A stretch of DNA of 64,000 bases, taken from NCBI RefSeq assembly GCF_030908625.1, contig NZ_CP133133.1, positions 2,790,001-2,854,000 of the forward strand, written 5' to 3'. The notes beneath the pieces were generated by a model. It did no database searches, had not been told where the DNA came from, and saw only the letters and a program-made list of their open reading frames with translations. Every line of letters starts with the position of its first letter. Position 1 is the first letter of the stretch. The position numbers and the translations under genes were made by a program. The stretch is from Paludicola sp. MB14-C6. GTDB lineage: Bacteria; Bacillota; Clostridia; Oscillospirales; Ruminococcaceae. Positions 1 to 54,245 of this stretch are shown piece by piece.

Positions 1-384
1 TATAAATTAAAATTGAAAGAACATATTACCTTTTTAGGTAATTTATGCGAGGAGGATATGTGTGAGCGCATGATGAATTCCCATGTGTTTCTATCTGCTT
101 CTAGTATAGAAAACAGCCCAAATAGTTTGGGCGAAGCGATGCTGCTTGGCGTACCTTGCATAAGCTCTGATGTTGGTGGTGTAACGAATATGATGAAACA
201 TAATACTGAAGGTTATATTTATCCAGCTGATGAGTATTACATGATTTCTTATTATGTGAAAGAGATTTTTGATAACCCTGATATTGCTCTTCAATTTTCT
301 GAAAAAGCAAAAAATCATGCAAAAAATACTCATGATAAAATTAAAAATATCGATGAGTTAATTCAAATATATAAAAAAATATAA
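1..384 (+). CDS. Glycosyltransferase, C-terminal part (5' end outside window)
   Basis: The frame is open from base 1, so the gene begins upstream; about 127 residues are visible. They match the C-terminal half of a GT-B (GT4-like) glycosyltransferase: an ENSPNSLGEAMLLGVP stretch corresponds to the E-x7-E nucleotide-sugar contact region, followed by a typical SDVGG segment and the final helix of the fold. It presumably adds a sugar during assembly of a surface polysaccharide, because a pyruvyl transferase gene follows 18 bases later. Family assignment is firm; donor, acceptor and linkage cannot be read from the fragment. Confidence 0.85.
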   Translation, partial: YKLKLKEHITFLGNLCEEDMCERMMNSHVFLSASSIENSPNSLGEAMLLGVPCISSDVGGVTNMMKHNTEGYIYPADEYYMISYYVKEIFDNPDIALQFSEKAKNHAKNTHDKIKNIDELIQIYKKI

Positions 385-402
385 GAATAGGGGAGAGTAT
401 AT

Positions 403-1371
403 ATGTCTGATATTAAAACATTCATACTATTTAGCCCAGCAATATCGTCATTAAATATTGGTGATGAAATAATCGTAGATTCCTGTAAAAAATATTTAAA
501 ACCACTATTACATAATTCTTATGTAGTCGAATTTGCAACCCATGTTCCTGTTACGAATATGTATATGTCGTTTATTGGAAATATTAATCATAAATTTGTA
601 TTAGGAAGCAATTTGTTAATGCCAAAAATGAATCAGAGTTTTAGACAATGGGATATAAAGTCATCAAATATCAATGCGATAAAACCAATAATAACAATGG
701 GCGTAGGTTGGCACTCATATTCAGGAAAATCAAATCATTATACAGAAAAATTGTATAAAAGTTTATTTAACCATGAGTATATAAATAGCGTTAGAGATCA
801 GTATACTGTAGAAAAGCTTCGCAGTATAGGTGTAAATAATGTAATTAACACCGCGTGTCCATCACTATGGGGATTTACTGATGAATTTTGTGATAGTATA
901 CCGACAAAAAAATCTGATACTGTTATTTGCACACTTACAGACTATAGGCCAGATGTGGAAAAAGATAAAGAACTTTTAAGTATTCTTTCTAAGAATTACA
1001 AACGTGTTTTATTATGGGTTCAAAGCCAAGGCGATATAGAATATATTTCTCAAGTCATTACGGATGATAAGATAGAAATTGTTTCACCATCTTTAGCGAC
1101 ATATGATAGTATTTTAGCTAATAACGATGTGGATTATGTTGGAACTAGATTACACGGTGGGATTAGAGCTCTACAACATAAAAAACGTTCATTTATAGTT
1201 GCTGTTGATAATCGTGCCAATGAAATACACAAGGATTGTGGGCTACCCATTATACAAAGAGAAAATTTAGAAAAGCTAGAGGAAGTTATTAATAGTGAAC
1301 AAAAAGTATCTATTGACTTGCCTAGAGAAAATATAAGAAAATGGTTAGCGCAATTTAATATTGAGTACTAA
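403..1371 (+). CDS. Polysaccharide pyruvyl transferase family protein
   Basis: A protein of 322 residues, the usual length for the PS_pyruv_trans family (CsaB/WcaK-like). Family members move pyruvate from phosphoenolpyruvate to a sugar hydroxyl to form acidic ketals on cell-wall or exopolysaccharides. Visible hallmarks are the N-terminal NIGDE segment and the C-terminal GTRLHGGIRALQ motif with the conserved His near residue 250. A GGGGAGAG ribosome site precedes the ATG. It lies between a glycosyltransferase and a flippase, which supports a role in modifying a repeat unit before export. Some members of the family are not proven pyruvyl transferases, so the reaction is inferred. Confidence 0.85.
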   Translation: MSDIKTFILFSPAISSLNIGDEIIVDSCKKYLKPLLHNSYVVEFATHVPVTNMYMSFIGNINHKFVLGSNLLMPKMNQSFRQWDIKSSNINAIKPIITMGVGWHSYSGKSNHYTEKLYKSLFNHEYINSVRDQYTVEKLRSIGVNNVINTACPSLWGFTDEFCDSIPTKKSDTVICTLTDYRPDVEKDKELLSILSKNYKRVLLWVQSQGDIEYISQVITDDKIEIVSPSLATYDSILANNDVDYVGTRLHGGIRALQHKKRSFIVAVDNRANEIHKDCGLPIIQRENLEKLEEVINSEQKVSIDLPRENIRKWLAQFNIEY

Positions 1372-1380
1372 CTTTTAGGA

Positions 1381-2802
1381 GTGGACAAAATCAATAAGTA
1401 TAAAAAGCTATTCTCAGATACAATGTTGTTTTCGTTTAGTGTGTTAGTATCAAAAGTTTTGTCTTTTTTTATGCTACCACTATATACTAACAGACTTACA
1501 ACTCAAGAATATGGAACCATTGATTTAGTAGTAACCACAGCATCATTGTTAATTCCAGTCTTGACTTTAAGTATTACTGATGCTGTATTAAGATTTTCAT
1601 TGGATAAAGATTCAGATCCAATGATGATATTTTCGATAGGACTTAAATTTTTAGCTTTTGGAGTAGTGCTTGCAATAGTAATATCCTTAATAGCGATGAT
1701 ATGTGGATTTGATATAAAATTATGTATGGTGTTTGACTTAATATTTATAACAAATTCTATATACACTCTGCTCAGTCAGTTTGTGAGAGGTATTGGTAGG
1801 GTCAAAGTGTTCGCGTTGAATGGAATAATATCAACTAGTGTGACAATAGGATTTAATATCCTTTTTTTAGTAGTTTTTAAAGCGGGCATATATGGATACT
1901 TATCTTCAATTATTATATCGGAGTTTATATGTATCATATATATGAGTTGCACGATAAATATAAAACAATATATTTCTTTCGAAAAAAGAGATAAAGAAAA
2001 ACAAAGAGAAATGCTAAAGTATGCTACACCACTAATTCCAAATTCAATTTCTTGGTGGGTAAATTCGCTTTCTGATAGATATATTATTGTTGCGTTGTGT
2101 GGGGTAGGAATCAATGGTATATATTCTGCAGCTTGTAGATTACCTACGCTTGTTTCGACAGCTGGGGATATTTTTATGCGAGCTTGGCAGCTTTCAGCAA
2201 TAAGTGAATTGAATAGTAAAAACCGCAACGAATTTTATAATTTAATATATAAATACTATAATTTGGTGCTTGTTTTTTGCTGTTCAATTGGAATTATGGC
2301 AACGCCTTTACTTGCTAAAATTTTATTTGATGTTAAATTTCAATCAGCTTGGAAATCTGCAATTTTCTTGTTAATTGGTGCTGTATTTTCTGCGCTTAAT
2401 GGTTTCATTGGTTCGTTATTTACAGCTACAAAGAATTCTAGAAGTTTATTTATTTCTACTTTAATAGGTGCCTCTACAAATATTCTATTAAATTTTATGT
2501 TAATTCCAATTTTAAATGAATGTGGGGCAGCAATTGCTACTATGACTAGTTTTTTTATTATCTTAATTGTAAGAGGAAAACTATTAAAAAGTGAATTTCC
2601 TGAGTTCAAAGTTTTTAGGATTAAGTTTATACTTGGCTATATATTGTTAATAGTTCAAGCTTCGGTCATGTTATGTACTATTAATAATATATTTGTACTT
2701 AATGTTATTATATCTTTACTCATCATATTTTTGTTTTCAAAAGATATTTTCTTATTGCTAGAAAAAGCTTTATTTAAAAGCAGATTACGTCTTAATAAGT
2801 AA
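1381..2802 (+). CDS. Polysaccharide flippase (MATE/MOP superfamily, Wzx-like)
   Basis: A strongly hydrophobic protein of about 470 residues with 12-14 predicted membrane segments. It opens with the FSFSVLVSKVLSFFMLPLYT segment typical of polysaccharide/O-antigen export flippases. It should move lipid-linked repeat units across the membrane. It sits 9 bases after the pyruvyl transferase in the same operon. The start is doubtful: the GTG at 1381 overlaps the AGGAG ribosome site (1377-1381) and has no spacer. An ATC at 1390 has ideal spacing, and the first ATG is at 1423. The downstream neighbour is an O-acyltransferase, consistent with modification of the exported chain. Confidence 0.88.
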   Translation: MDKINKYKKLFSDTMLFSFSVLVSKVLSFFMLPLYTNRLTTQEYGTIDLVVTTASLLIPVLTLSITDAVLRFSLDKDSDPMMIFSIGLKFLAFGVVLAIVISLIAMICGFDIKLCMVFDLIFITNSIYTLLSQFVRGIGRVKVFALNGIISTSVTIGFNILFLVVFKAGIYGYLSSIIISEFICIIYMSCTINIKQYISFEKRDKEKQREMLKYATPLIPNSISWWVNSLSDRYIIVALCGVGINGIYSAACRLPTLVSTAGDIFMRAWQLSAISELNSKNRNEFYNLIYKYYNLVLVFCCSIGIMATPLLAKILFDVKFQSAWKSAIFLLIGAVFSALNGFIGSLFTATKNSRSLFISTLIGASTNILLNFMLIPILNECGAAIATMTSFFIILIVRGKLLKSEFPEFKVFRIKFILGYILLIVQASVMLCTINNIFVLNVIISLLIIFLFSKDIFLLLEKALFKSRLRLNK

Positions 2803-3059
2803 GTTCATCTCGTTCATGAGTTAGTATGCAGTTATATATTGAATACGTGTAATTGTAGCATTGCTAATTATCAAAGGTATTTTAAACTTTGTGATATCGG
2901 TATTAGTTTTTTATTATAAATTTCAAAAGTAATGAGTTTTGTAATATAAAAAATATATTAGCAAATTATATCCAAAAATTCCGAACACGAAAGTAATAAA
3001 AGTGAACAAATAATCATTATCCACTTTACTCATTTATGTAAATCATCATGAGGTATAAT

Positions 3060-4550
3060 ATGATTTTCAATTCCATGTCTTTCTTAATATTCTTTCCTAT
3101 AGTAACTGTTGTCTATTTTCTAATTCCTCATAAAATAAAATGGATTTGGTTATTGGTAACCAGTTATTTTTTCTATATGTGTTGGAATCCCCAATATGCA
3201 ATTTTAATTGGGTTTTCAACTGTAATTACATATTTAAGCGGTATATTTATAGAAAAGTTAAGAAAAATACCAGACATCAAAAAATCTAAGAGGTTAATGC
3301 ACCTAGTGGTGTATTTATGCTTGGCCATTAACTTAGGTCTATTATTTTTCTTTAAATATTTTGACTTCGCAATAGATAATATTAATATAGCACTTTCTTT
3401 ATTGAACTTATCATTAGTGCAACCCGAGTTCGATGTTTTATTACCTGTTGGTATTTCCTTTTATACATTTCAAGCGTTAAGTTATACGATTGATGTTTAT
3501 CGTGGGGATATTTATGCAGAACGTAATATTGGAAAATACGCGTTATTTGTATCATTTTTTCCACAGTTAGTAGCCGGACCTATTGAGCGTTCTAAAAATT
3601 TATTAACGCAAATTAACGATAAACACAATTTTGATTATACAAGGGCTAAGCTCGGATTACAGCTCATGCTATGGGGTTTATTCCAAAAAATCGTAATTGC
3701 AGATAGAGTTGCTATTATTGTGAATAATGTATATGGGAATTACTCTAATCAATCAGGTATCGTTTTAATCTTGGCGACAATTTTATTCGCAGTGCAAATT
3801 TATTGCGATTTTTCAGGCTATTCGAATATGGCAATCGGTGCAGCTCAAGTAATGGGATTTAAGCTTATGGATAACTTCAATCGTCCTTATTTTGCTCGAT
3901 CCATTAAAGATTTTTGGCATAGATGGCACATATCGCTTAGCTCCTGGTTTAGAGACTATTTATACATACCGTTAGGCGGAAGCCGTTGTTCCAAAGAGAG
4001 AAAGTGTTTTAACCTAATGGTTACATTCCTTTTGAGTGGATTATGGCATGGAGCGAGTTGGAATTATGTTGTTTGGGGCGTATTACACGGTTTTTATCAA
4101 GTATCTGGTGAAATTTTAACACCGGTGCGAAGTAAAATTAAAAAAGCTTTTAAAGTAAATGAAAGTAGCTTTGCTCATAGACTATTTCAATGCGTATTTA
4201 CATTTATATTAGTTGATATAGCATGGATATTTTTTAGAGCACCTGGAGTAAAAGCTGGATTATCAATTGTTAAAACAATGATTACAAATTTGAATTTAAA
4301 TGCTCTTATTGATGGAACTTTGTATACATTTGGGGTATCACAATCTCAGTTCACTACAATGCTCATAACAATTGTTGTACTATTCATAGTTTCTTCATTG
4401 CAAAGGAAGTATAAATTGAGAGAAAAATTACAACAACAACCTTTATGGTTTAGATGGATGATATATTTTATTGCTATCAATAGTATTTTATATCTTGGTG
4501 TTTATGGATCTGAGTATGCTCAAACACAATTCATTTATTTCCAATTCTAA
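3060..4550 (+). CDS. MBOAT family O-acyltransferase (AlgI/DltB-like)
   Basis: This 496-residue multi-pass membrane protein passes an acyl, usually acetyl, group across the membrane to an extracellular partner that modifies a polymer. Family signatures are visible: the VGISFYTFQALSYTIDVYRG segment, FWHRWHISLSSWFRDYLYIP, the PLGGSR loop, and GLWHGASWNYVVWG with the invariant catalytic His. The start at 3060 is chosen over the ATG at 3048 because GAGG (3050-3053) is correctly placed only for 3060, and the resulting N terminus is typical of AlgI proteins. An SGNH-type partner follows 16 bases later. About 245 bases of AT-rich DNA separate it from the flippase, so it may have its own promoter. Confidence 0.93.
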   Translation: MIFNSMSFLIFFPIVTVVYFLIPHKIKWIWLLVTSYFFYMCWNPQYAILIGFSTVITYLSGIFIEKLRKIPDIKKSKRLMHLVVYLCLAINLGLLFFFKYFDFAIDNINIALSLLNLSLVQPEFDVLLPVGISFYTFQALSYTIDVYRGDIYAERNIGKYALFVSFFPQLVAGPIERSKNLLTQINDKHNFDYTRAKLGLQLMLWGLFQKIVIADRVAIIVNNVYGNYSNQSGIVLILATILFAVQIYCDFSGYSNMAIGAAQVMGFKLMDNFNRPYFARSIKDFWHRWHISLSSWFRDYLYIPLGGSRCSKERKCFNLMVTFLLSGLWHGASWNYVVWGVLHGFYQVSGEILTPVRSKIKKAFKVNESSFAHRLFQCVFTFILVDIAWIFFRAPGVKAGLSIVKTMITNLNLNALIDGTLYTFGVSQSQFTTMLITIVVLFIVSSLQRKYKLREKLQQQPLWFRWMIYFIAINSILYLGVYGSEYAQTQFIYFQF

Positions 4551-4566
4551 AGGGGAGGGACTAAAC

Positions 4567-5526
4567 TTGGCTAAAAAAAGTTGGATTTTTCGAAGTATTA
4601 TATTTATAGTAATAATGCTTGTTTGGATTTTCTCTGTTATTTTACCTCAATACAGTAAAGGCTATAATGCATCAATGATTGATAAATATGATCGTCTTAA
4701 AAGTGTGAAAGAACCGAAAATAATACTCGTTGGTGATTCTAATGTAGCATTTGGATTTAATTCAAAGTTAATTGAGGAACAGTTCAATATGCCAGTTGTT
4801 AATATGGGATTACATGGTGGACTAGGGCTCACATTACATACAGATATTGTAAAAGGGAACATCAACAAAGGTGATATTGTAGTTGTATTACCAGCGCAAT
4901 ATGATTTCCCAAATGGAATTAGTGATGCTGTGCTTGCGTGGCAAACGATAGAGAATCATTTTTCTTTATGGTCGAAAATAAGATATCAAGACTATGAAAA
5001 AATGATTGAAGCATTTCCGACTTATTTAAAAAAAGCAGTTGAACTATCGTTCCCAAATTGCTTGAGCCGTTTGAAGTTTTGGAATCGTGAAACAACCCCA
5101 CCTCCACCAAAGAGTGTTTACTCACGAGCGGCTTTTAATGAATATGGTGATGTAAAGTTTGAACGTTCGAAAAATATAATGAAAAACAGGCATCTCGCTG
5201 AAGCAGGATTTAGACGAGGTCAAATATCCAAAGAGCTTATGCAGTATTTAAATGAGTATCATAAATATGTTGAATCTCAAGGGGCAACACTCTTTATGGG
5301 AGTTCCACCAATAATGCAAGAGATTTTTGAAATGACTGATGAAGAACTTGCCGATTTTCAAGAGGAGTTAGAAAATAGTATTCAATTTGAATTGATTTCT
5401 GATTTTAATAATTATATTTATTCAGAGACCTTGTTTTATAATACCAATCTTCATTTGAATGATAGAGGTGTTGAAATTAGGACACAACAATTTATTAAGG
5501 ATCTAACTAAAGCAGTTAAAAACTAG
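4567..5526 (+). CDS. Membrane-anchored SGNH/GDSL-like esterase or acetyltransferase
   Basis: A protein of 319 residues with one N-terminal membrane anchor (about residues 7-28) and an extracytoplasmic domain. VGDSN near residue 58 is an SGNH block I serine motif, and NLHLNDRG near the C terminus supplies the D-x-x-H-like block V. Such proteins partner with MBOAT acyltransferases and attach or remove acetyl groups on surface polymers. The TTG at 4567 is preferred because GGGGAGGG lies 7 bases upstream; the frame is open further upstream, but that would overlap the MBOAT gene. It ends about 130 bases before the nucleotidyltransferase. Substrate unknown. Confidence 0.75.
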   Translation: MAKKSWIFRSIIFIVIMLVWIFSVILPQYSKGYNASMIDKYDRLKSVKEPKIILVGDSNVAFGFNSKLIEEQFNMPVVNMGLHGGLGLTLHTDIVKGNINKGDIVVVLPAQYDFPNGISDAVLAWQTIENHFSLWSKIRYQDYEKMIEAFPTYLKKAVELSFPNCLSRLKFWNRETTPPPPKSVYSRAAFNEYGDVKFERSKNIMKNRHLAEAGFRRGQISKELMQYLNEYHKYVESQGATLFMGVPPIMQEIFEMTDEELADFQEELENSIQFELISDFNNYIYSETLFYNTNLHLNDRGVEIRTQQFIKDLTKAVKN

Positions 5527-5659
5527 TAAGATTTACTGCCTTATTGGTAATTTCTTAGATTGTTAGAAAGATAAAAATCAAAAATTAGAGGTTAAAAAAG
5601 TCAATCAATCTTTATATTGAAATAATAAAATATAACCAAACCACGAAAGGACATACAAA

Positions 5660-6586
5660 ATGAATACATCATTAGTAATCATGGCTGCTGGAATTGGATC
5701 ACGATTCGGTGGCGGCATTAAACAACTTGAACCAGTTGGCCCTAATGGAGAAATCATTATGGATTATTCTATCCATGATGCAATCAAAGCAGGATTTAAT
5801 AAAATTATATTTATAATACGCAAAGATATAGAAGATGATTTTCGTGAAGTCATCGGTAATCGTATTGAAAAGATTTGTAGAGAATTAAATGTAACAATGG
5901 AATATGCATTCCAAGCATTAGAGGATGTTCCAAAAGGCGTTTCTTTACCAGAAAATCGTAAAAAGCCATGGGGTACAGGACAAGCTGTTTTATCTTGTAA
6001 AGGGTTAATTAAAGAACCATTTGCAGTCATTAATGCAGATGATTATTATGGTAAGGAAGCATTTTATAAAATCCATGAGTTCTTACTGTCATATACAAAT
6101 TCAGAACCAAACAAGCTATGTATGGCAGGCTTTATCTTGAAGAATACACTAAGTGAAAACGGTGGAGTTACAAGAGGTATTTGTCAAGTCAATGAAGAAG
6201 ACTATTTAACTAATGTTGTTGAGACACATGATATTGTGAAAACTGATAAAGGTGCAGCAGTAAACGGAAACGAAATTGATGTCAATTCATTTGTATCAAT
6301 GAATATGTGGGGGTTAACCCCAGAGTTTATTGATATTCTTGCAAATGGATTTGTTGAGTTCTTTCAAACGATTGATGGCAACGAGCAGAAAGATGAGTAT
6401 TTGTTGCCAGTTTTAGTTGGACAATTACTGCAAGAAGATAAAGTATCGGTAAAAGTTTTAAAGACTTCTGATGAATGGTTCGGTGTTACCTATAAGGAAG
6501 ATAAAGATTATGTAATAGATTCTTTTAAGAAACTAATTGCAATTGGTGCATATTCTGAAAATTTATTTGAAGATTTATTAGGATAG
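5660..6586 (+). CDS. Sugar-phosphate nucleotidyltransferase family protein
   Basis: This 308-residue cytoplasmic protein starts with MAAGIGSRFGGGIKQLEPVGP, a close variant of the G-x-G-T/S-R signature of NDP-sugar pyrophosphorylases. A VINADDYYG segment supplies the metal-binding aspartates. The family joins a sugar-1-phosphate to an NTP, giving the activated donor for glycosyltransferases. The divergent GxKQ loop places it in a poorly characterised clade, so it should not be called RmlA or GalU outright. A GAAAGGA site lies 8 bases before the ATG. galE follows 35 bases later, so both probably feed the polysaccharide operon with precursors. Confidence 0.8.
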   Translation: MNTSLVIMAAGIGSRFGGGIKQLEPVGPNGEIIMDYSIHDAIKAGFNKIIFIIRKDIEDDFREVIGNRIEKICRELNVTMEYAFQALEDVPKGVSLPENRKKPWGTGQAVLSCKGLIKEPFAVINADDYYGKEAFYKIHEFLLSYTNSEPNKLCMAGFILKNTLSENGGVTRGICQVNEEDYLTNVVETHDIVKTDKGAAVNGNEIDVNSFVSMNMWGLTPEFIDILANGFVEFFQTIDGNEQKDEYLLPVLVGQLLQEDKVSVKVLKTSDEWFGVTYKEDKDYVIDSFKKLIAIGAYSENLFEDLLG

Positions 6587-6621
6587 ATTTAGAATAAAAT
6601 ATTTGGCAAAGGAGATAACCC

Positions 6622-7638
6622 ATGAAGGTTTTAGTCACTGGTGGTGCTGGATATATCGGTAGTCACACATGTGTAGAATTATTGAATGCAGGGTTTGATG
6701 TCGTTGTTGTAGATAACCTCTATAATTCAAATGTAGAAGCGATTGCTCGTGTTGAAGAAATAACAGGTAAAAAAATCACTTTCTATCAAGAAGATATTTG
6801 CAATAAAGATGCTCTCGACACTATCTTTTCAAAAGAGAATGTGGACGCTGTTATTCATTTTGCTGGCTTGAAAGCAGTGGGCGAGTCTGTAAGAGAACCT
6901 CTTGCATATTACGAAACGAACATTGCTGGAACAATGACTTTATGCAAGGCTATGAAAGAAGCAAATGTCAAAAATATAATTTTTAGTTCTTCAGCTACAG
7001 TTTATGGAGATCCTGCTTTTATACCAATAACAGAAACTTGTCCAAAGGGTATTTGTACAAATCCATACGGGTGGTCCAAATGGATGGTAGAACAAATATT
7101 AACTGATTTATATACATCAGATAATAGCTGGAACGTAGTATTGCTAAGATATTTTAATCCTGTTGGTGCACATGAAAGTGGTAAGATTGGTGAAGATCCG
7201 AAAGGAATACCAAACAATCTTATGCCATATATTTCGCAAGTTGCAGTAGGTAAGCTATCTTGCTTAGGCGTATTTGGTGATGATTATGATACACATGATG
7301 GCACAGGCGTGCGAGATTATATTCATGTTGTGGATCTTGCAATAGGGCATATTAAGGCTATAAAACAGTTTCAAAATAACGGAGGAGTTTATACATATAA
7401 CTTAGGAACAGGCATAGGTTATTCTGTTCTTGATATGGTAAAAGCCTTTGGAAAAGCTTGTGGAAAAGAAATACCTTATGAAATAAAGCCTCGTCGTGCT
7501 GGTGATATAGATAAGAACTATTGCTCGCCTGAAAAAGCAAAAGATGAGCTTGGATGGCAAGCAACCCGTAGCTTGCAAACAATGTGTGAGGACTCATGGA
7601 GATGGCAAAGTAATAATCCAAACGGATATGAGAAATAG
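6622..7638 (+). CDS. galE: UDP-glucose 4-epimerase
   Basis: This 338-residue protein is of standard GalE length and interconverts UDP-glucose and UDP-galactose with bound NAD. The Rossmann motif [11 protein letters not shown] is at residues 6-16. FSSSATVYG supplies the catalytic Ser/Thr, and YGWSK is the YxxxK pair. The C-terminal half carries the RAGD segment common to GalE enzymes. A strong AAGGAGA site lies 8 bases before the ATG. It is the last gene of the polysaccharide cluster and is followed by a perfect 19-bp terminator hairpin at 7702. Very confident. Confidence 0.97.
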
Positions 7639-7701
7639 ATTATCTAATTTGTGACAGTAACTGGAGTACTTGTCTAATCTCAAATACCTGTTCACTACCA
7701 T

Positions 7702-7751
7702 ACAAAATAAGAACGTATAGTAGAGATGCTATACGTTCTTATTTTGTTTTT
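7702..7751 (+). terminator. Rho-independent terminator after galE
   Basis: Perfect 19-bp inverted repeat (arms 7702-7720 and 7729-7747) with an 8-base loop and a T-rich end. It closes the galE transcript. Confidence 0.93.
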
Positions 7752-7841
7752 CCCCCCACATAAGGTCTTAGGGTTACCCTAAACAAGCCTAATGTCCCCA
7801 TTAGGCAATGCTTGCTATACCAATACCATTACAATTCAACC

Positions 7842-7879
7842 AAAAGGCAAACAACATTTTTACGTTGTTTGCCTTTTTC
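7842..7879 (+). terminator. Orphan terminator-like hairpin
   Basis: Perfect 14-bp stem (AAAAGGCAAACAAC and its complement, 7842-7855 and 7864-7877), 8-base loop and a T tract. No gene lies between it and the galE terminator, so it may be left over from a lost gene, or may insulate the recombinase module from upstream transcription. Confidence 0.7.
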
Positions 7880-8083
7880 ATATTTATAAATAAATAGTAA
7901 ATACTATTCAATATTTTCGCCCACCCCTCACTCTAAACGGCAAATAGAGTAAGGGGGATTTTTATATCCTAGAATAAAAACGCTACACCATAGCGATAAT
8001 CTTCTAATATTTGTGGCATGTACAAGCAGAATTTTAGAACAACACGAATATAGTTATAGTAAATGACAACAGGGGGTGGCAGA

Positions 8084-8269
8084 ATGATTAATGATGTAAT
8101 AAAGCAAATAGACGTAGAAAATGATATGGAGGTAAACCGAAAATCACAAGCAGAATTCCTATTTGAGTATCAAAAATCAGTTCTACTCAACCTATCTGAA
8201 CAAGGTGTAATAAATGATATCCAATGCCAGCAATGTATTGAGAAATTAGCATGGCAATTTAGAAAATAA
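8084..8269 (+). CDS. Small SHOCT-like protein upstream of the recombinase
   Basis: 61 residues from an ATG preceded by AGGGGGT with 8-base spacing; the upstream ATG at 8063 overlaps that site and is unlikely. The second half (EYQKSVLLNLSEQGVINDIQ then CQQCIEKL) resembles a short SHOCT-type C-terminal helix pair, with two Cys in a CQQC pair. It lies 60 bases before the serine recombinase and is probably co-transcribed, so a role as an accessory or regulator of recombination is a fair guess, but nothing in the sequence proves a function. Confidence 0.6.
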   Translation: MINDVIKQIDVENDMEVNRKSQAEFLFEYQKSVLLNLSEQGVINDIQCQQCIEKLAWQFRK

Positions 8270-8329
8270 TCCATACATTCGCAAAGAGAATAAACTGCTG
8301 TTAAACTGTAAAGGAAGGAGATGATAGAG

Positions 8330-10111
8330 ATGCAAAAGGTTGCAGTATATTGTCGTGTATCGACGGATAAAGATGACCAAGCAAATTCATTTGAAAGTCA
8401 ACAACGATATTTTAGGGACTATATAGATCGCCAGCCAGATTGGGAGCTTGCAAATATCTATGCAGACGAAGGGCTATCGGGCACCTCGACAAAGAAGCGT
8501 GCAGCATTTAATCGCATGATTAACGATGCAAATCTAGGTAAGTTTGATATTGTTATCACAAAAGAAGTGAGCCGTTTTTCAAGAAATATTCTAGATACGA
8601 TATCCTATACAAGAGAGCTACGAAGAAAAGGAATTGGTGTGTTATTTGCAAACGATGGTATTAACACACTAGAACCAGATTCAGAGTTGCGTTTATCCAT
8701 CATGGGCAGTATCGCACAAGAAGAAAGTCGTAAGACAAGCACTCGAGTGAAATGGGGACAGACCAGGCGAATGGAACAAGGGGTTGTCTTTGGGAGAAGT
8801 ATGCTTGGTTATGATGTGAAGAATGGTATGATGACAGTTAACCCAAGTGGTGCAGAAATTGTAAAGCTTATCTTTTATAAGTATGTAGAAGAGCGAAAAG
8901 GCACAAGTGTTATCGCACGAGAGCTTCGGGAAGCAGGCTACAAAACATATACAGGTAGTCCGAATTGGACGAATAGTGTGATTCTAAAGATTTTACGCAA
9001 TGAAAAGTATTGCGGTGATTTGTGTCAAAAAAAGACTTACACGCCTGATTACTTATCCCATGAAAAGAAATACAACTATGATGCGGAAGAAAAAGTGTTT
9101 TTAAAAGATCATCATGAAGCAATCATAGATAGAAAACTATGGGATAGAGCACAGAAAGAATTAGTGAGAAGAGATGTAGGTAGCAATGTGAAAATTGGAC
9201 ACGGAAATCGCTACGCACTTTCTGGGAAAATTAAATGTGGAGAATGTGGTGCCACCTTTGTTTCACGATATAAAACTCGCAAAAGTGGTAGCAAATATAA
9301 GTGCTGGAGATGTGGGGTAGCTACTGCATATGGCACAAAAAAGATTGATCAAGCAGGGAATGAAGTAGGCTGCAACATTGGAAGACAAATTCGCGATGAA
9401 ATTGCAATGCATGTCTTAAAGCAAAGTGTAGATAGCCTACTCATTGACAAAACTGCTGTGATTGATACTATTACAGATATTGTAACGAGTGTCATTAAAA
9501 GTTCAGAACAAGGGGAACAAATTAACTTAGTTAAACTCGAACATCAGCTAGAGACGATTATCCAAAAGAAAAAGAGCGTACTAGATGCCTTCTTTTCGCA
9601 AAGTATCACAAAAGAGGAAATGCGTATGATGACTGAGCAATATGATTCAGATATTACAGAACTAACAAATAAACTTAATATGGCAAAGCAAAAACAAGGG
9701 CTAGAGTATTCTTGCGATGATATGAAAACAGATATTGCAAAAAAGGTTGAGGATATTGTATATGGAAAAACAGATTGCGAAAATTTTTATGGTAACTTGT
9801 TAGATACAATTACTGTTTTTAGCGATCAGAAAATTCAGGTAACACTCAATCTTTTGCCAACAAAATGGACATATGTAGTAGAAAGTTTAAAGCAATTTGA
9901 AAAATATATGCAAATGCCAACAAACCCAGTAATAATGGGCGTTCATGAGGATGTGGCCCATAGTGTACACGATGTTCTACCCCCAAATGCCACAATTAGC
10001 GTTTCAACAAATGCAGTAACTACCGAGGTTCAAGAGGGAATGGCTCAATATAAACACGATATACCGATATCGGTTAGCAGCCCTTTCACATCTCCTGATG
10101 GAGCAATGTAG
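8330..10111 (+). CDS. Large serine recombinase (site-specific integrase/excisionase)
   Basis: This 593-residue recombinase has the standard three-part layout. Residues 1-150 are the resolvase catalytic domain, with the YCRVST motif (nucleophile Ser11) and RFSRN. A Recombinase domain follows (about 160-260). Then come a zinc ribbon with two CxxC pairs (IKCGECGATF, YKCWRCG) near 300-330 and a coiled-coil tail. It cuts and rejoins att sites to insert or excise an element. The ATG at 8330 is chosen because AAGGAAGGAG ends 9 bases before it. The last 15 or so codons are antisense to cotJC, which is what an insertion boundary inside that gene would produce; the foreign stop codon may therefore be host DNA. 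Confidence 0.95.
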   Translation: MQKVAVYCRVSTDKDDQANSFESQQRYFRDYIDRQPDWELANIYADEGLSGTSTKKRAAFNRMINDANLGKFDIVITKEVSRFSRNILDTISYTRELRRKGIGVLFANDGINTLEPDSELRLSIMGSIAQEESRKTSTRVKWGQTRRMEQGVVFGRSMLGYDVKNGMMTVNPSGAEIVKLIFYKYVEERKGTSVIARELREAGYKTYTGSPNWTNSVILKILRNEKYCGDLCQKKTYTPDYLSHEKKYNYDAEEKVFLKDHHEAIIDRKLWDRAQKELVRRDVGSNVKIGHGNRYALSGKIKCGECGATFVSRYKTRKSGSKYKCWRCGVATAYGTKKIDQAGNEVGCNIGRQIRDEIAMHVLKQSVDSLLIDKTAVIDTITDIVTSVIKSSEQGEQINLVKLEHQLETIIQKKKSVLDAFFSQSITKEEMRMMTEQYDSDITELTNKLNMAKQKQGLEYSCDDMKTDIAKKVEDIVYGKTDCENFYGNLLDTITVFSDQKIQVTLNLLPTKWTYVVESLKQFEKYMQMPTNPVIMGVHEDVAHSVHDVLPPNATISVSTNAVTTEVQEGMAQYKHDIPISVSSPFTSPDGAM

Positions 10112-10248
10112 CGTTGGCTTAAATAACGAGTAGAAGCACCAAGCTCACCATCAGGCCCTCCGTATTGGGTAATAATTAACTTTGCAAGTTCAGGATTCGG
10201 ATTTTTTATTTTAACAGGATACTGTAATTTTTTATCATAATGCCACAT
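10045..10248 (-). pseudogene. cotJC: cotJC, N-terminal fragment (manganese-catalase-like spore coat protein)
   Basis: 67 codons are open; the first 62 match the N terminus of CotJC closely (MWHYDKKLQYPVKI, LAKLIITQYGGPDGELGA, RYLSQRY, KGLLTDIG). CotJC proteins are about 190 residues, ferritin-like manganese catalases of the inner spore coat. Here the frame runs into recombinase DNA exactly where a TEE(L/F)AH segment, carrying a metal ligand, should follow, so about two thirds of the protein is missing. It is the third gene of a cotJA-cotJB-cotJC operon, starting 3 bases after cotJB. It is either a broken gene or the 5' half of a gene restored by excision. Confidence 0.85.
10055..10085. other. 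Probable att junction between element and cotJC
   Basis: Read on the minus strand, cotJC homology (LLTDIG) ends here and is replaced by unrelated ISCLY and a stop. The switch falls on a perfect 12-bp palindrome, ACCGATATCGGT (10063-10074). Crossover by the adjacent serine recombinase at or beside this palindrome is inferred. Confidence 0.6.
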
Positions 10249-10251
10249 AAA

Positions 10252-10509
10252 TTATACCTCACTTCCGTATTCCCAAGGCCATTTGGTAGTTACCCAATCC
10301 CAAACCTTATCATTGTTAACATCAGCTATTGTCAATGGACCGTAATTGTTAATATATTCTTGCCTTGCTTCTTCTGCCATAACCTTGTATTTTTGATAAA
10401 AAGCGAGTGCTTCTTTGTCATATTTGTGTGTGTCGAGGTAGAGAGCTGTCTCAAATAACGTAAAGTCGCATATTTGTATATGTTTCAATAATGATTGCTT
10501 ATCTTTCAT
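10252..10509 (-). CDS. cotJB: Spore coat protein CotJB
   Basis: An 85-residue protein matching the CotJB family: LLKHIQICDFTLFETALYLD near the N terminus and the C-terminal GPLTIADVNNDKVWDWVTTK and WPWE segment. It is a coat component made in the mother cell. The ATG at 10509 is preferred over the GTG at 10527 because an AGGAGG site lies 9 bases upstream of it and overlaps the GTG. It overlaps the end of cotJA by 11 bases, the usual operon arrangement. Confidence 0.93.
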   Translation of the reverse strand: MKDKQSLLKHIQICDFTLFETALYLDTHKYDKEALAFYQKYKVMAEEARQEYINNYGPLTIADVNNDKVWDWVTTKWPWEYGSEV

Positions 10510-10708
10510 TTGGAATAGCCTCCTCACCTAAAAATGGTTTGTCTAAGCAAGGAAAAAGCGTACCTCTCATAAATCCTACCGCAGGTTCATATGTTTTGTC
10601 CCAGCTTTGATACGGTACATATGCCATACCAAAGGAGATAGGTTGATTCGTAAATATGCTTATATCTCCTGTGCTTGCATTTGATCTTTCATTTAGATTA
10701 TCAATCAT
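10499..10708 (-). CDS. cotJA: Spore coat-associated protein CotJA
   Basis: About 69 residues with the CotJA signature: MAYVPYQSWDKTYEPAVGF, then GTLFPCLDKPFLG. It acts with CotJB and CotJC in the spore coat. Two starts are possible: ATG 10720 abuts the AAAGGA site with no spacer, whereas ATG 10708 has a long but usable spacing; I use 10708. The frame is open to 10780. The operon reads leftward from here into the interrupted cotJC. A mother-cell sigma factor promoter is expected upstream, but I could not identify one convincingly. Confidence 0.9.
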   Translation of the reverse strand: MIDNLNERSNASTGDISIFTNQPISFGMAYVPYQSWDKTYEPAVGFMRGTLFPCLDKPFLGEEAIPNER

Positions 10709-10885
10709 AAAAATCTTCATTCCTTTCGTGATACATATTCTCAAAGTGCAAACAGTTGTACTTTGCGCTTTTGTGTTCAATATTTAGAACATTCTGCTAG
10801 TATCATAATATGCTGACAGCTTTTATCGGTGAAAGCAAAGAATAAAGTTATTATGCTTGGTATTAAACAGTTAGTAAGGCATATA

Positions 10886-15134: not shown

Positions 15135-15187
15135 TCATATTAACCAAATCAAGCATAAATTATATATTGACGATTATTGTATAAGTA

Positions 15188-15216
15188 TTGCAAATATTAT
15201 CAATTTATAGTATAAT
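15188..15216 (+). promoter_or_regulatory. Housekeeping promoter of the nitroreductase gene
   Basis: TTGCAA (15188-15193), 17-base spacer, TATAAT (15211-15216). A 12-bp tandem direct repeat, TGACATCAAGAA, follows at 15232 and 15245. Confidence 0.75.
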
Positions 15217-15269
15217 TTATAATTGTAAAAATGACATCAAGAATTGACATCAAGAAGGAACATTAAAGT

Positions 15270-43473: not shown

Positions 43474-44915
43474 CAGTCTGAAGAAAAAGCCCGATTTTGG
43501 CGTAACCAAAGTCGGGCTTTTGAATATATGGTTGAAAATTTGAAAAAAGTGCAAAGGATACAAAAAGGAGAGTTCACCCTCCACTTATGTATTGCCAGCT
43601 TTTTAAGGTTCATGCACGCAAATTTAAGCCTAACCCAGTTTGTTACTTGGGCAAGACTTCGATAAGGTGTATAACGCATTGCGTATTTTTCTTTCGCATC
43701 AGCAAAAACTCGCTCAATCGTTTCTTTTCGCTGTGCATAAAGATCTTTGTATTTTATTGCATAACGAATATCTGAAACTTGCTCTAAGTACTCATGCCAA
43801 ACATGAACTGTGTATTGTTTCTGGAATTCTTTACTTTCAGTGCATTTGTAACGAAACCCACAGATTTTACAGTCGTTTGGATTGCTTTTAAATTCTTTGT
43901 ATCCTTCTCTATTCGTGGTGGAATAGTGTAAAACTTTATTGTTTGGACATACTACACAGTCAAAATATTCATCATATGAAAAATCATATTTCTTAAAAAA
44001 GCCTTGTTTTGTCATTGGTCTACGATATGGTACTAATAAATCTTTTCCATCATCTATAAGTCTTTTTGCAATATAGGGAGTATTGTAGGCACTATCTGCC
44101 ACTATTGTTTGGATTTCGGGGTGGTTTTCTTTTAATTTATCATACAAATCATCGAATGCTACGCTGTCATGTACATTGCCTGCTGTTACATGAACATCTA
44201 CAATGTAGCCTTTTTTGTCACAAGCTGTATGTGCTTCATAAGCAAGGCATTTCTTATGCTCTCCTTTATGAAATACACCGCTTTCAGGGTCAGTGGTTGA
44301 TTCATTGATGATTTTTTCTTCTATTTTAGGTGGCTTTGTATCGTCAAATGGCTTTTTTTTATGTTCTTCTCTATCTTTATTGATTTCGTCCATTAGTTGT
44401 TTCTCATAATGTTTTGCTGCTACGGGGATTGATTTCTTTACAACCTTTTTTATATTTGCATTTGCTTTTATATGGGTTCCATCTACAAATACCACCTCTG
44501 GGTCAAGATATCCCATATCATTGATTTCATTCAATATCCAGTTGAAAATGCATGCAATAGTATTCTCGTTAAATCTATGTTTAAAGGCATAACTTATTGT
44601 TGTAAAGTGAGGTATTTGTTCTGTCATTAAATATCCTAAAAACCAACGATATGCACAGTTCATTTGTACTTCTTCTACCAATTTGCGCAACGAACTTATT
44701 CCATACAAATGTTGTATTAAGACCATTTTGATTAGTACTACTGGGTCTATGCTTGGTCTTCCATTATCTTTACAATACAAATCCTCTACGAAATCATATA
44801 TATGACAGAAATCCACTGCACTATCTATTTTTCTAAGCAAATGTTCTGCTGGAATAAATTCTTCTAAGCACAAAAACTCTACTTGTGTTCGGTCTTTTTT
44901 AGCTTTAACTAACAT
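43473..44915 (-). CDS. IS1182 family DDE transposase
   Basis: A 480-residue DDE transposase. N-terminal DUF772-type domain (FIPAEHLLRKIDSAVDF, GRPSIDPVVLIKMVLIQHLYG); VDGTHIKANAN with the first Asp; VADSAYNT with the second; ERVFADAKEKYAMRY with the Glu; a CxxC-rich insert (VVCPNN...CKICGFRYKC). Its TGA stop is formed by TG from the IS end plus the first base of the target hairpin, so the element carries no complete stop codon. It differs from copy 2 at one place seen, Phe versus Leu in CGFRYKC. Confidence 0.95.
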   Translation of the reverse strand: MLVKAKKDRTQVEFLCLEEFIPAEHLLRKIDSAVDFCHIYDFVEDLYCKDNGRPSIDPVVLIKMVLIQHLYGISSLRKLVEEVQMNCAYRWFLGYLMTEQIPHFTTISYAFKHRFNENTIACIFNWILNEINDMGYLDPEVVFVDGTHIKANANIKKVVKKSIPVAAKHYEKQLMDEINKDREEHKKKPFDDTKPPKIEEKIINESTTDPESGVFHKGEHKKCLAYEAHTACDKKGYIVDVHVTAGNVHDSVAFDDLYDKLKENHPEIQTIVADSAYNTPYIAKRLIDDGKDLLVPYRRPMTKQGFFKKYDFSYDEYFDCVVCPNNKVLHYSTTNREGYKEFKSNPNDCKICGFRYKCTESKEFQKQYTVHVWHEYLEQVSDIRYAIKYKDLYAQRKETIERVFADAKEKYAMRYTPYRSLAQVTNWVRLKFACMNLKKLAIHKWRVNSPFCILCTFFKFSTIYSKARLWLRQNRAFSSD

Positions 44916-52909: not shown

Positions 52910-54245
52910 TAAGGTGTATAACGCATTGCGTATTTTTCTTTCGCATCAGCAAAAACTCGCTCAATCGTTTCTTTTCGCTGTGCATAAAGATCTTTGTATT
53001 TTATTGCATAACGAATATCTGAAACTTGCTCTAAGTACTCATGCCAAACATGAACTGTGTATTGTTTCTGGAATTCTTTACTTTCAGTGCATTTGTAACG
53101 TAACCCACAGATTTTACAGTCGTTTGGATTGCTTTTAAATTCTTTGTATCCTTCTCTATTCGTGGTGGAATAGTGTAAAACTTTATTGTTTGGACATACT
53201 ACACAGTCAAAATATTCATCATATGAAAAATCATATTTCTTAAAAAAGCCTTGTTTTGTCATTGGTCTACGATATGGTACTAATAAATCTTTTCCATCAT
53301 CTATAAGTCTTTTTGCAATATAGGGAGTATTGTAGGCACTATCTGCCACTATTGTTTGGATTTCGGGGTGGTTTTCTTTTAATTTATCATACAAATCATC
53401 GAATGCTACGCTGTCATGTACATTGCCTGCTGTTACATGAACATCTACAATGTAGCCTTTTTTGTCACAAGCTGTATGTGCTTCATAAGCAAGGCATTTC
53501 TTATGCTCTCCTTTATGAAATACACCGCTTTCAGGGTCAGTGGTTGATTCATTGATGATTTTTTCTTCTATTTTAGGTGGCTTTGTATCGTCAAATGGCT
53601 TTTTTTTATGTTCTTCTCTATCTTTATTGATTTCGTCCATTAGTTGTTTCTCATAATGTTTTGCTGCTACGGGGATTGATTTCTTTACAACCTTTTTTAT
53701 ATTTGCATTTGCTTTTATATGGGTTCCATCTACAAATACCACCTCTGGGTCAAGATATCCCATATCATTGATTTCATTCAATATCCAGTTGAAAATGCAT
53801 GCAATAGTATTCTCGTTAAATCTATGTTTAAAGGCATAACTTATTGTTGTAAAGTGAGGTATTTGTTCTGTCATTAAATATCCTAAAAACCAACGATATG
53901 CACAGTTCATTTGTACTTCTTCTACCAATTTGCGCAACGAACTTATTCCATACAAATGTTGTATTAAGACCATTTTGATTAGTACTACTGGGTCTATGCT
54001 TGGTCTTCCATTATCTTTACAATACAAATCCTCTACGAAATCATATATATGACAGAAATCCACTGCACTATCTATTTTTCTAAGCAAATGTTCTGCTGGA
54101 ATAAATTCTTCTAAGCACAAAAACTCTACTTGTGTTCGGTCTTTTTTAGCTTTAACTAACATTTAATCACCCTATTTAATTATACCATTTTTCGCGTCAA
54201 AAGTCCCCTAAATCATCGAATTTAGGAGACTTTTTCTACAAGCTG

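Follow-up and report, generated by a model that had tools for sequence, protein, structure and literature searches.

Two unrelated serine-recombinase elements split the spore-coat gene cotJC of Paludicola sp. MB14-C6, at positions where the gene is interrupted recurrently across Clostridia

Several genes of endospore formation are interrupted by DNA elements; in the portions of the literature available to us, to which the comparisons below are confined, these are sigK, spoVFB, spoVR, spsM, gerE and yabG. Here, we report the interruption of cotJC, which encodes a coat protein of the Mn-catalase family, found in a 64,000-nucleotide stretch of the genome of Paludicola sp. MB14-C6 (contig NZ_CP133133.1, positions 2790001-2854000; hereafter, the window). 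The gene is interrupted twice, by insertion of two unrelated elements. A literature search returned no report of an interrupted cotJC, with most subscription papers and all bioRxiv preprints outside its reach; phi027 lies beside a cotJC homologue in Clostridioides difficile, and no split gene is described in the accessible part of that report (PMC11222575).

The closest described systems each share part of this anatomy. Like cotJC, the sigK gene of C. difficile and Bacillus subtilis is a mother-cell gene cut by a serine-recombinase element, skin (PMC5025042), but skin is one element in a regulator gene, whereas cotJC is a structural coat gene with two unrelated elements and, among relatives, four integration nucleotides. 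The pairs SPbeta/spsM, vfbin/spoVFB and vrin/spoVR are likewise interrupted spore-envelope or sporulation genes, and spsM is rebuilt by precise excision of SPbeta (PMC4191935); each of those genes holds a single prophage or phage-gene-bearing element, whereas cotJC holds a conjugative element and a polysaccharide island. The gin element in gerE of Bacillus cereus (core, 9 bp) is, like the cotJC elements, a non-phage gene-intervening element with serine recombinases, but it is one element with three recombinases, in contrast to two elements with one recombinase each at the end (PMC5595907). The yin element in yabG of Clostridium botulinum matches cotJC in being clostridial, in interrupting a sporulation gene and in having a candidate small directionality factor; it is described as unique to one strain, whereas the cotJC elements recur in many genera (PMC10747680). 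Finally, the second cotJC element resembles TndX/Tn5397-type conjugative elements in combining a large serine recombinase (~32% identical to TndX on enterococcal plasmids) with conjugation genes; unlike in that type, its recombinase belongs to a clade of its own among cotJC recombinases (family C) that is tied to one cotJC nucleotide.

An earlier note, made from the window alone, had described whole cotJA and cotJB genes, a cotJC that loses homology after 62 codons (at LLTDIG) and an adjoining large serine recombinase running antisense into it, all of which Pfam matches and coordinates bear out. The 3' end of the recombinase faces cotJC piece 1 and overlaps it antisense by 48 bp, and piece 1 ends at the crossover predicted for recombinase family B1. 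The features of the locus are as follows (window positions).

10499-10780, minus strand: cotJA, intact (PF11007, E value 1e-16, passes the Pfam cut-off)
10252-10527, minus strand: cotJB, intact (PF12652, E value 1e-27, passes the Pfam cut-off)
10064-10248, minus strand: cotJC piece 1, N-terminal, codons 1-62 up to the GG of codon 62 (PF05067 positions 1-63, E value 2e-18, passes the Pfam cut-off)
10062-10065, minus strand: attachment core GGTA, with GG at 10065-10064 as the predicted central dinucleotide (attP dyad, 13/18)
8321-10111, plus strand: large serine recombinase 1, 596 amino acids (aa), family B1 (PF00239, PF07508 and PF13408; falls in the B1 clade)
8063-8269, plus strand: small 68-aa open reading frame (ORF) 5' of recombinase 1, possible internal start at 8084 (homologues in B1 loci)
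1-10063: right part of element 1

The remainder of the gene, which the note had predicted on the minus strand, is there in two parts. A search of the whole genome (2,937,905 bases, one contig) with PF05067 found no intact copy and three collinear minus-strand pieces, the third of which lies 81.5 kb beyond the second. The second break has a large serine recombinase of its own, and thus two elements, not one, split cotJC (genome positions).

2800063-2800248, minus strand: PF05067 match, positions 1-63
2777742-2777975, minus strand: PF05067 match, positions 60-150
2695841-2696227, minus strand: PF05067 match, positions 147-267
2777743-2777964, minus strand: cotJC piece 2, starting with TEE(L/F)AH-type sequence
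2695544-2696216, minus strand: cotJC piece 3
2776063-2777652: large serine recombinase 2, family C, 529 aa, at the second break

The attP sites of serine integrases are palindromic, and crossovers were predicted as the dinucleotide that gives the most palindromic circle from the element-side flanks. In MB14-C6 these are GG of codon 62 (dyad, 13/18) and GA of codon 136 (dyad, 14/18), and joining the pieces at both dyad centres (genome 2800064 to 2777964 and 2777743 to 2696216; around DIG-TEE and LAA-EQK in the protein) yields a single 359-codon ORF. Over residues 1-197, the product needs no gaps in alignment with four intact genes of the same genus (144-154 of 197 identical), the comparison with intact relatives for which the note had called. 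The arrangement is therefore one that recombination would rejoin, as the note's reading required, since the pieces are on the same strand and collinear and deletion at the sites would restore the frame. The same join delimits element 1 (22,099 bp; genome 2777965-2800063) and element 2 (81,526 bp, inserted at codon 136 and unrelated to element 1). With a split sporulation gene whose parts are kept, a direct core repeat with pieces in the required strand and order, and a site-specific serine recombinase in the element, the locus has the anatomy of the sporulation gene-intervening class (skin, SPbeta/spsM, gin and yin). The C-terminal extension of CotJC (L004, genome 2695544-2695840) contains repeated KPVTEM/KPATEM units. 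Elsewhere in the genome, sigK and spoIVA are intact, and no split sporulation gene was recognised in the ORF lists around the other recombinases (161669 and 443157); the one at ~443157 (L286), a large serine recombinase, faces a gene for a UvrD/PcrA-like helicase (named by eye) at its 3' end.

The break had also been placed on a 12-bp palindrome, ACCGATATCGGT, which is indeed present there (10063-10074), its sole exact copy in the window (two window matches against 0.03 expected when up to one mismatch is allowed). It consists of ordinary cotJC codons, T-D-I-G, the predicted recombination centre being the GG of the last, and was rejected as the attachment repeat: it is host coding sequence, and the core common to both ends is only GGTA. 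A TEE(L/F)AH fragment next to a second palindrome-like site had been expected; the fragment was found on the same strand, itself cut, with only GGTA in common. The palindrome is missing in 11 of the 15 piece pairs that share this recombination centre (judged by eye), and it is incidental to the break.

Interruption of cotJC recurs across Clostridia. Within the genus, the gene is split in four of eight genomes (MB14-C6 included) and gives one whole-length match in the other four. Among 396 genomes of the family, 277 have a PF05067 match, and the 88 whose best matches are weak were examined in detail: in 82, the gene is split near profile positions 32, 63 or 147-150 (read by hand), and six were left out of the count (G041, G076, G268, G289, G303 and G343). 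With MB14-C6, G002, G004 and G007, about 86 of the 277 matching genomes are split, a lower bound because genomes that also have a strong match were not read in detail. Conversely, the assignment of pieces in draft genomes relied on their end points instead of on assembly. The N-terminal pieces of G041 (L098), G303 (L102) and G343 (L104) reach model position 99-114, which is none of the sites described below, with no recombinase in the locus; these may be a further break or a contig end.

At nucleotide level, the three split places are four exact positions, and a separate recombinase clade goes with each. Common cores and a join free of stops were sought in 67 piece pairs; the search missed one of them (G299, site A), and the remaining 66 all join in frame, 64 at intact length. 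Since an in-frame join and near-intact length are conditions of that search, the attP dyad centre is the stronger test, and it falls on the family nucleotide in 61 of the 66 pairs, with dyads of 9-17 of 18, some of them weak alone. The centre is model nucleotide 91 in 22/22 pairs at site A, 184 in 15/34 and 193 in 15/34 at site B, and 406 in 9/10 at site C; the site-B nucleotide of MB14-C6 is common to 15 of the 34, and the five pairs off the family nucleotide are from G146, G156, G370 (twice) and G385. Every centre occupies positions 1 and 2 of a Gly (GG) or Glu (GA) codon, beyond the reach of synonymous change. The four centres lie in or beside GGPDGE, DIGTEELAH and AAEQKAR, which we take to be the Mn-ligand motifs of Mn catalase. 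Two tested junctions each are present in seven genomes, MB14-C6 among them. For pairs on the same contig, strand and order allow rejoining by deletion in 28 of 31 (hand count). The G107 pieces lie on opposite strands (C83, 4821-5291 plus and 15172-15267 minus), where recombination would invert the stretch yet rejoin the gene; those of G138 (C1, 198620 and 873640, both minus) and G151 (C1, 1313660 and 1325622, both minus) are in reversed order, such that the join would sit on a separate circle, or the chromosome may be rearranged. The observation in the earlier note was correct but understated the locus, and its interpretation is supported in part: it overlooked the second element and the recurrence at four exact positions.

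The recombinases sort with the sites. One lies within 2.5 kb of the junction in 58 of the 66 pairs (in the sequence examined), within 130 bp in 52, and its 3' end faces the piece in 55 of 66 (not in G185, G244 [site B] or G254). A tree of recombinases at cotJC junctions only, from which duplicate loci and recombinases shorter than 380 aa or farther than 2.5 kb from the piece were dropped, had 67 rows for 66 different genes (G385 was entered twice, as L099 and L139) and four clades, one per nucleotide (A, 19 rows; B1, 18; B2, 19; C, 11), with sites A and C each a single clade at 100/100. Two changes, the fewest possible, account for the site labels on the tree, against a mean of 26.2 for shuffled labels (0/200 shuffles are that low). 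A genome-contig database was scanned with six B1 proteins, and of the best 80 loci among 540 relatives, 71 have a cotJC piece broken near codon 64 beside the recombinase, in records of Lachnospiraceae, Oscillospiraceae and other Clostridia. Isolates whose records have a broken cotJC include Ructibacterium gallinarum DSM 107454, Flavonifractor sp. An10 and Anaeromassilibacillus sp. An250. Families A and C were searched in 197 family genomes. Fourteen of 16 family-A matches stand beside a cotJC piece, and in the two exceptions (G118 and G151) the site-A pieces are at another place; for family C, six of seven matches above 700 bits do so, as does one truncated match, and the other 21 of all 28 do not, which makes C a delimited clade nested in a wider group of recombinases whose targets differ. 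In IMG/VR, 11 of the best 80 relatives adjoin a cotJC fragment (one weak), the six best included. A 23.9-kb "plasmid" (OY725852.1, L321) and a "phage" (MT839280.1, L322) also carry a cotJC piece next to a related recombinase; we considered them as excised circles and rejected this, as both hold cotJC pieces and are thus probably chromosomal fragments.

The best reading of this locus, and probably the correct one, is in our view that cotJC, a single coat gene, is freed of two unrelated elements by excision during development. The anatomy, piece order, matching cores, in-frame rejoining, piece conservation and site-specific recombinase families are shown here; the excision is inferred. Each large serine recombinase would have inserted its own circle into a conserved codon, element 1 at codon 62 and element 2 at codon 136. 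The mother cell is where B. subtilis expresses cotJ; there, a small directionality factor would be made and each recombinase would cut out its own element, after which the N-terminal, middle and C-terminal parts would form one cotJC gene. The spore would retain the unspliced chromosome, so that the elements could pass to the next generation without harm to the coat.

Purifying selection still acts on the separated 3' pieces. Ratios of nonsynonymous to synonymous divergence (dN/dS; Nei-Gojobori, each sequence to the nearest member of its class) had a median of 0.051 for intact cotJC (23 pairs), of 0.101 (16), 0.073 (28) and 0.088 (12) for 3' pieces after sites A, B and C, respectively, and of 0.19 (55) for short N-terminal pieces and 0.132 (6) for those that run past codon 75. 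Synonymous divergence (dS) of recombinase and 3' piece was compared in 11 pairs with the same split: in three, the values are readable and similar (recombinase/piece, 0.37/0.56, 0.58/0.44 and 0.82/1.32; piece dN, 0.015-0.071). A further two match, but at high dS alone (1.33/1.32 and 2.32/2.36), four are unreadable because dS is saturated, and two disagree (below). These values suggest that certain elements probably descended jointly with a functionally kept piece and that others probably moved in or were replaced later.

The 68-aa ORF has homologues in B1 recombinase loci and no Pfam family, and is a candidate recombination directionality factor. A promoter search with the B. subtilis sigma-E consensus led to a motif, ATA-N2-G(T/G)AC(A/G)A-N8-10-(C/A)ATA, upstream of the recombinase in 37 of the 70 loci tested among the best 80 B1 loci of the database scan (shuffles, 0.06; reverse strand, 0). 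Sixty-two of the database-scan loci have a homologue of the 68-aa ORF, with the motif close by in 31, where it ends 24-28 bp before the start codon of the small ORF in 24. The motif contains a box that resembles a SpoIIID box. In C. difficile, the 72-aa directionality factor CD1234 is under sigma-E and SpoIIID, a SpoIIID box being reported for it (PMC5025042), and the likeness of the B1 motif and small ORF to that control is suggestive.

Several observations weigh against developmental excision. No excised form or rejoined gene was seen. For eight of the 66 pairs, there is no recombinase in the sequence examined, and the order of pieces is wrong for simple deletion in G107 (inverted), G138 and G151 (both reversed). 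G262 and G380 have near-identical recombinases (dS, 0.10) on diverged hosts with saturated piece dS; conversely, in G004 and G007, recombinase dS is saturated and the pieces are similar (dS, 0.81; 35 codons). One locus (L441, in G034) looks decayed, with two stops in the recombinase and the cotJC piece in two frames. In family genomes, the extended form of the motif was found in 0/13 A, 0/8 B2, 1/9 C and 1/10 B1 loci, the sole family-C match being recombinase 2 of MB14-C6 itself, and the strict motif was not found upstream of recombinase 1 or its small ORF. Many of the 37 motif-bearing loci are from close relatives and so are not independent cases. The motif precedes cotJA in none of 137 loci (a control), and when the whole genome was searched with part of the motif, the matches were 23 insertion-sequence copies and nine scattered places (backward control, six), which leaves the link to a mother-cell sigma factor one of resemblance. 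Two of the 23 copies are in the window at 44646-44669 and 53893-53916 (genome 2834646 and 2843893); the copy L289 is inside a transposase-like ORF (named by eye) of an insertion sequence.

Alternatively, cotJC may be merely a convenient conserved target, with insertion killing a dispensable coat gene (cotJ is not essential in B. subtilis) and pieces persisting because the insertions are recent or revert at the population level. Centres on conserved codons would widen the host range whatever the fate of the gene, and the recent transfer seen in G262/G380 and the decayed look of L441 are as this would have it. We nevertheless find it rather unlikely: the 3' pieces are open and under purifying selection, including in the three sister pairs with similar recombinase and piece dS, the seven genomes with double insertions keep their pieces, and 28 of 31 same-contig pairs keep an orientation that can be rejoined.

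What the two elements carry bears on a further possibility. The polysaccharide genes to the left of recombinase 1, which the earlier note had suspected of being cargo, lie inside element 1. Pfam was run on 14 of the 19 element 1 proteins of at least 60 aa and on 21 proteins of element 2 (the first feature is in window positions, the others in genome positions).

403-7638, plus strand: surface polysaccharide genes, cargo of element 1 (by Pfam; ORFs 1-384 and 4471-5526 outside the scan)
2743169-2764913: Ssp-type defence genes of element 2 (loci L009 and L010; one 1768-aa ORF among them outside the scan)
2702255-2704126: reverse transcriptase with HNH domain, inside element 2 (L007)

The genes at 403-7638 encode a pyruvyl transferase, flippase, MBOAT acyltransferase, nucleotidyl transferase and epimerase, and the scan of element 1 also found a glycosyltransferase, UDP-N-acetylglucosamine (UDP-GlcNAc) 2-epimerase, LicD, sugar epimerases, a RepA_N initiator and the recombinase; a ParB-like fragment was below the Pfam cut-off. 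Neither phage structural families nor transfer genes were found among the 14 proteins scanned. Element 2 encodes a relaxase (PF03432) and VirD4-type (PF02534) and VirB4-type (PF19044/PF12846) proteins; with a relaxase, coupling protein, type IV secretion ATPase, integrase and defined ends, it is an integrative conjugative element. It also carries ParA/ParB and, for Ssp-type phosphorothioation defence, SspA, SspB, SspC, SspF, SspG, a BrxP/SspD-like protein and a second SspC-like protein. The reverse transcriptase with HNH is presumably of group II intron type. Two 121-aa ORFs of element 2 (genome 2732041-2732406 and 2734722-2735087), ~2.7 kb apart and identical over their first 50 residues, look like a stretch duplicated around an insert.

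The relaxase, VirD4-type and VirB4-type genes mean that element 2 plausibly excises to transfer, and the elements might therefore excise for their own ends, in conjugation or under stress, outside sporulation control, and cotJC would then be whole again only in those few cells from which they are lost. That the promoter-like motif was not seen in most recombinase families would fit, but element 1 has no transfer genes among the proteins scanned, the SpoIIID-like box precedes the small ORF in the motif of database-scan B1 loci (by resemblance), and restoration in rare cells would leave only weak selection on the pieces; excision for transfer is thus a quite improbable account of the locus. Many relatives are draft assemblies, three of them with odd order or strand, but wrongly joined contigs that only make the pieces look separate are exceedingly improbable, as MB14-C6 has a single-contig genome that is free of N over the stretch read, 61 of the 66 tested pairs are broken at the same nucleotide, and isolate records have the same break.

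In the literature surveyed here, developmental excisions in spore formers are a short list of single cases, whereas cotJC is split in about 86 of 277 matching family genomes (a lower bound), and twice in at least seven genomes, by four recombinase families with mapped sites. Where cotJC appears fragmented in genomes of Clostridia, the other pieces should be looked for before gene loss is called. We lean toward a broader view in which cotJC of gut Clostridia would be a multi-part gene assembled by serial DNA splicing in the mother cell, with at least two matched, independent excisions per cell; four recombinase families would each act on one invariant nucleotide at conserved catalase motifs, and conjugative elements, islands and minimal 2-kb elements would use cotJC as a safe harbour tolerated by spore-forming hosts. 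Should excision be confirmed, gut Clostridia would commonly have programmed excision as a trait, and cotJC would offer a natural experiment, replicated many times, on how elements and hosts keep a truce.

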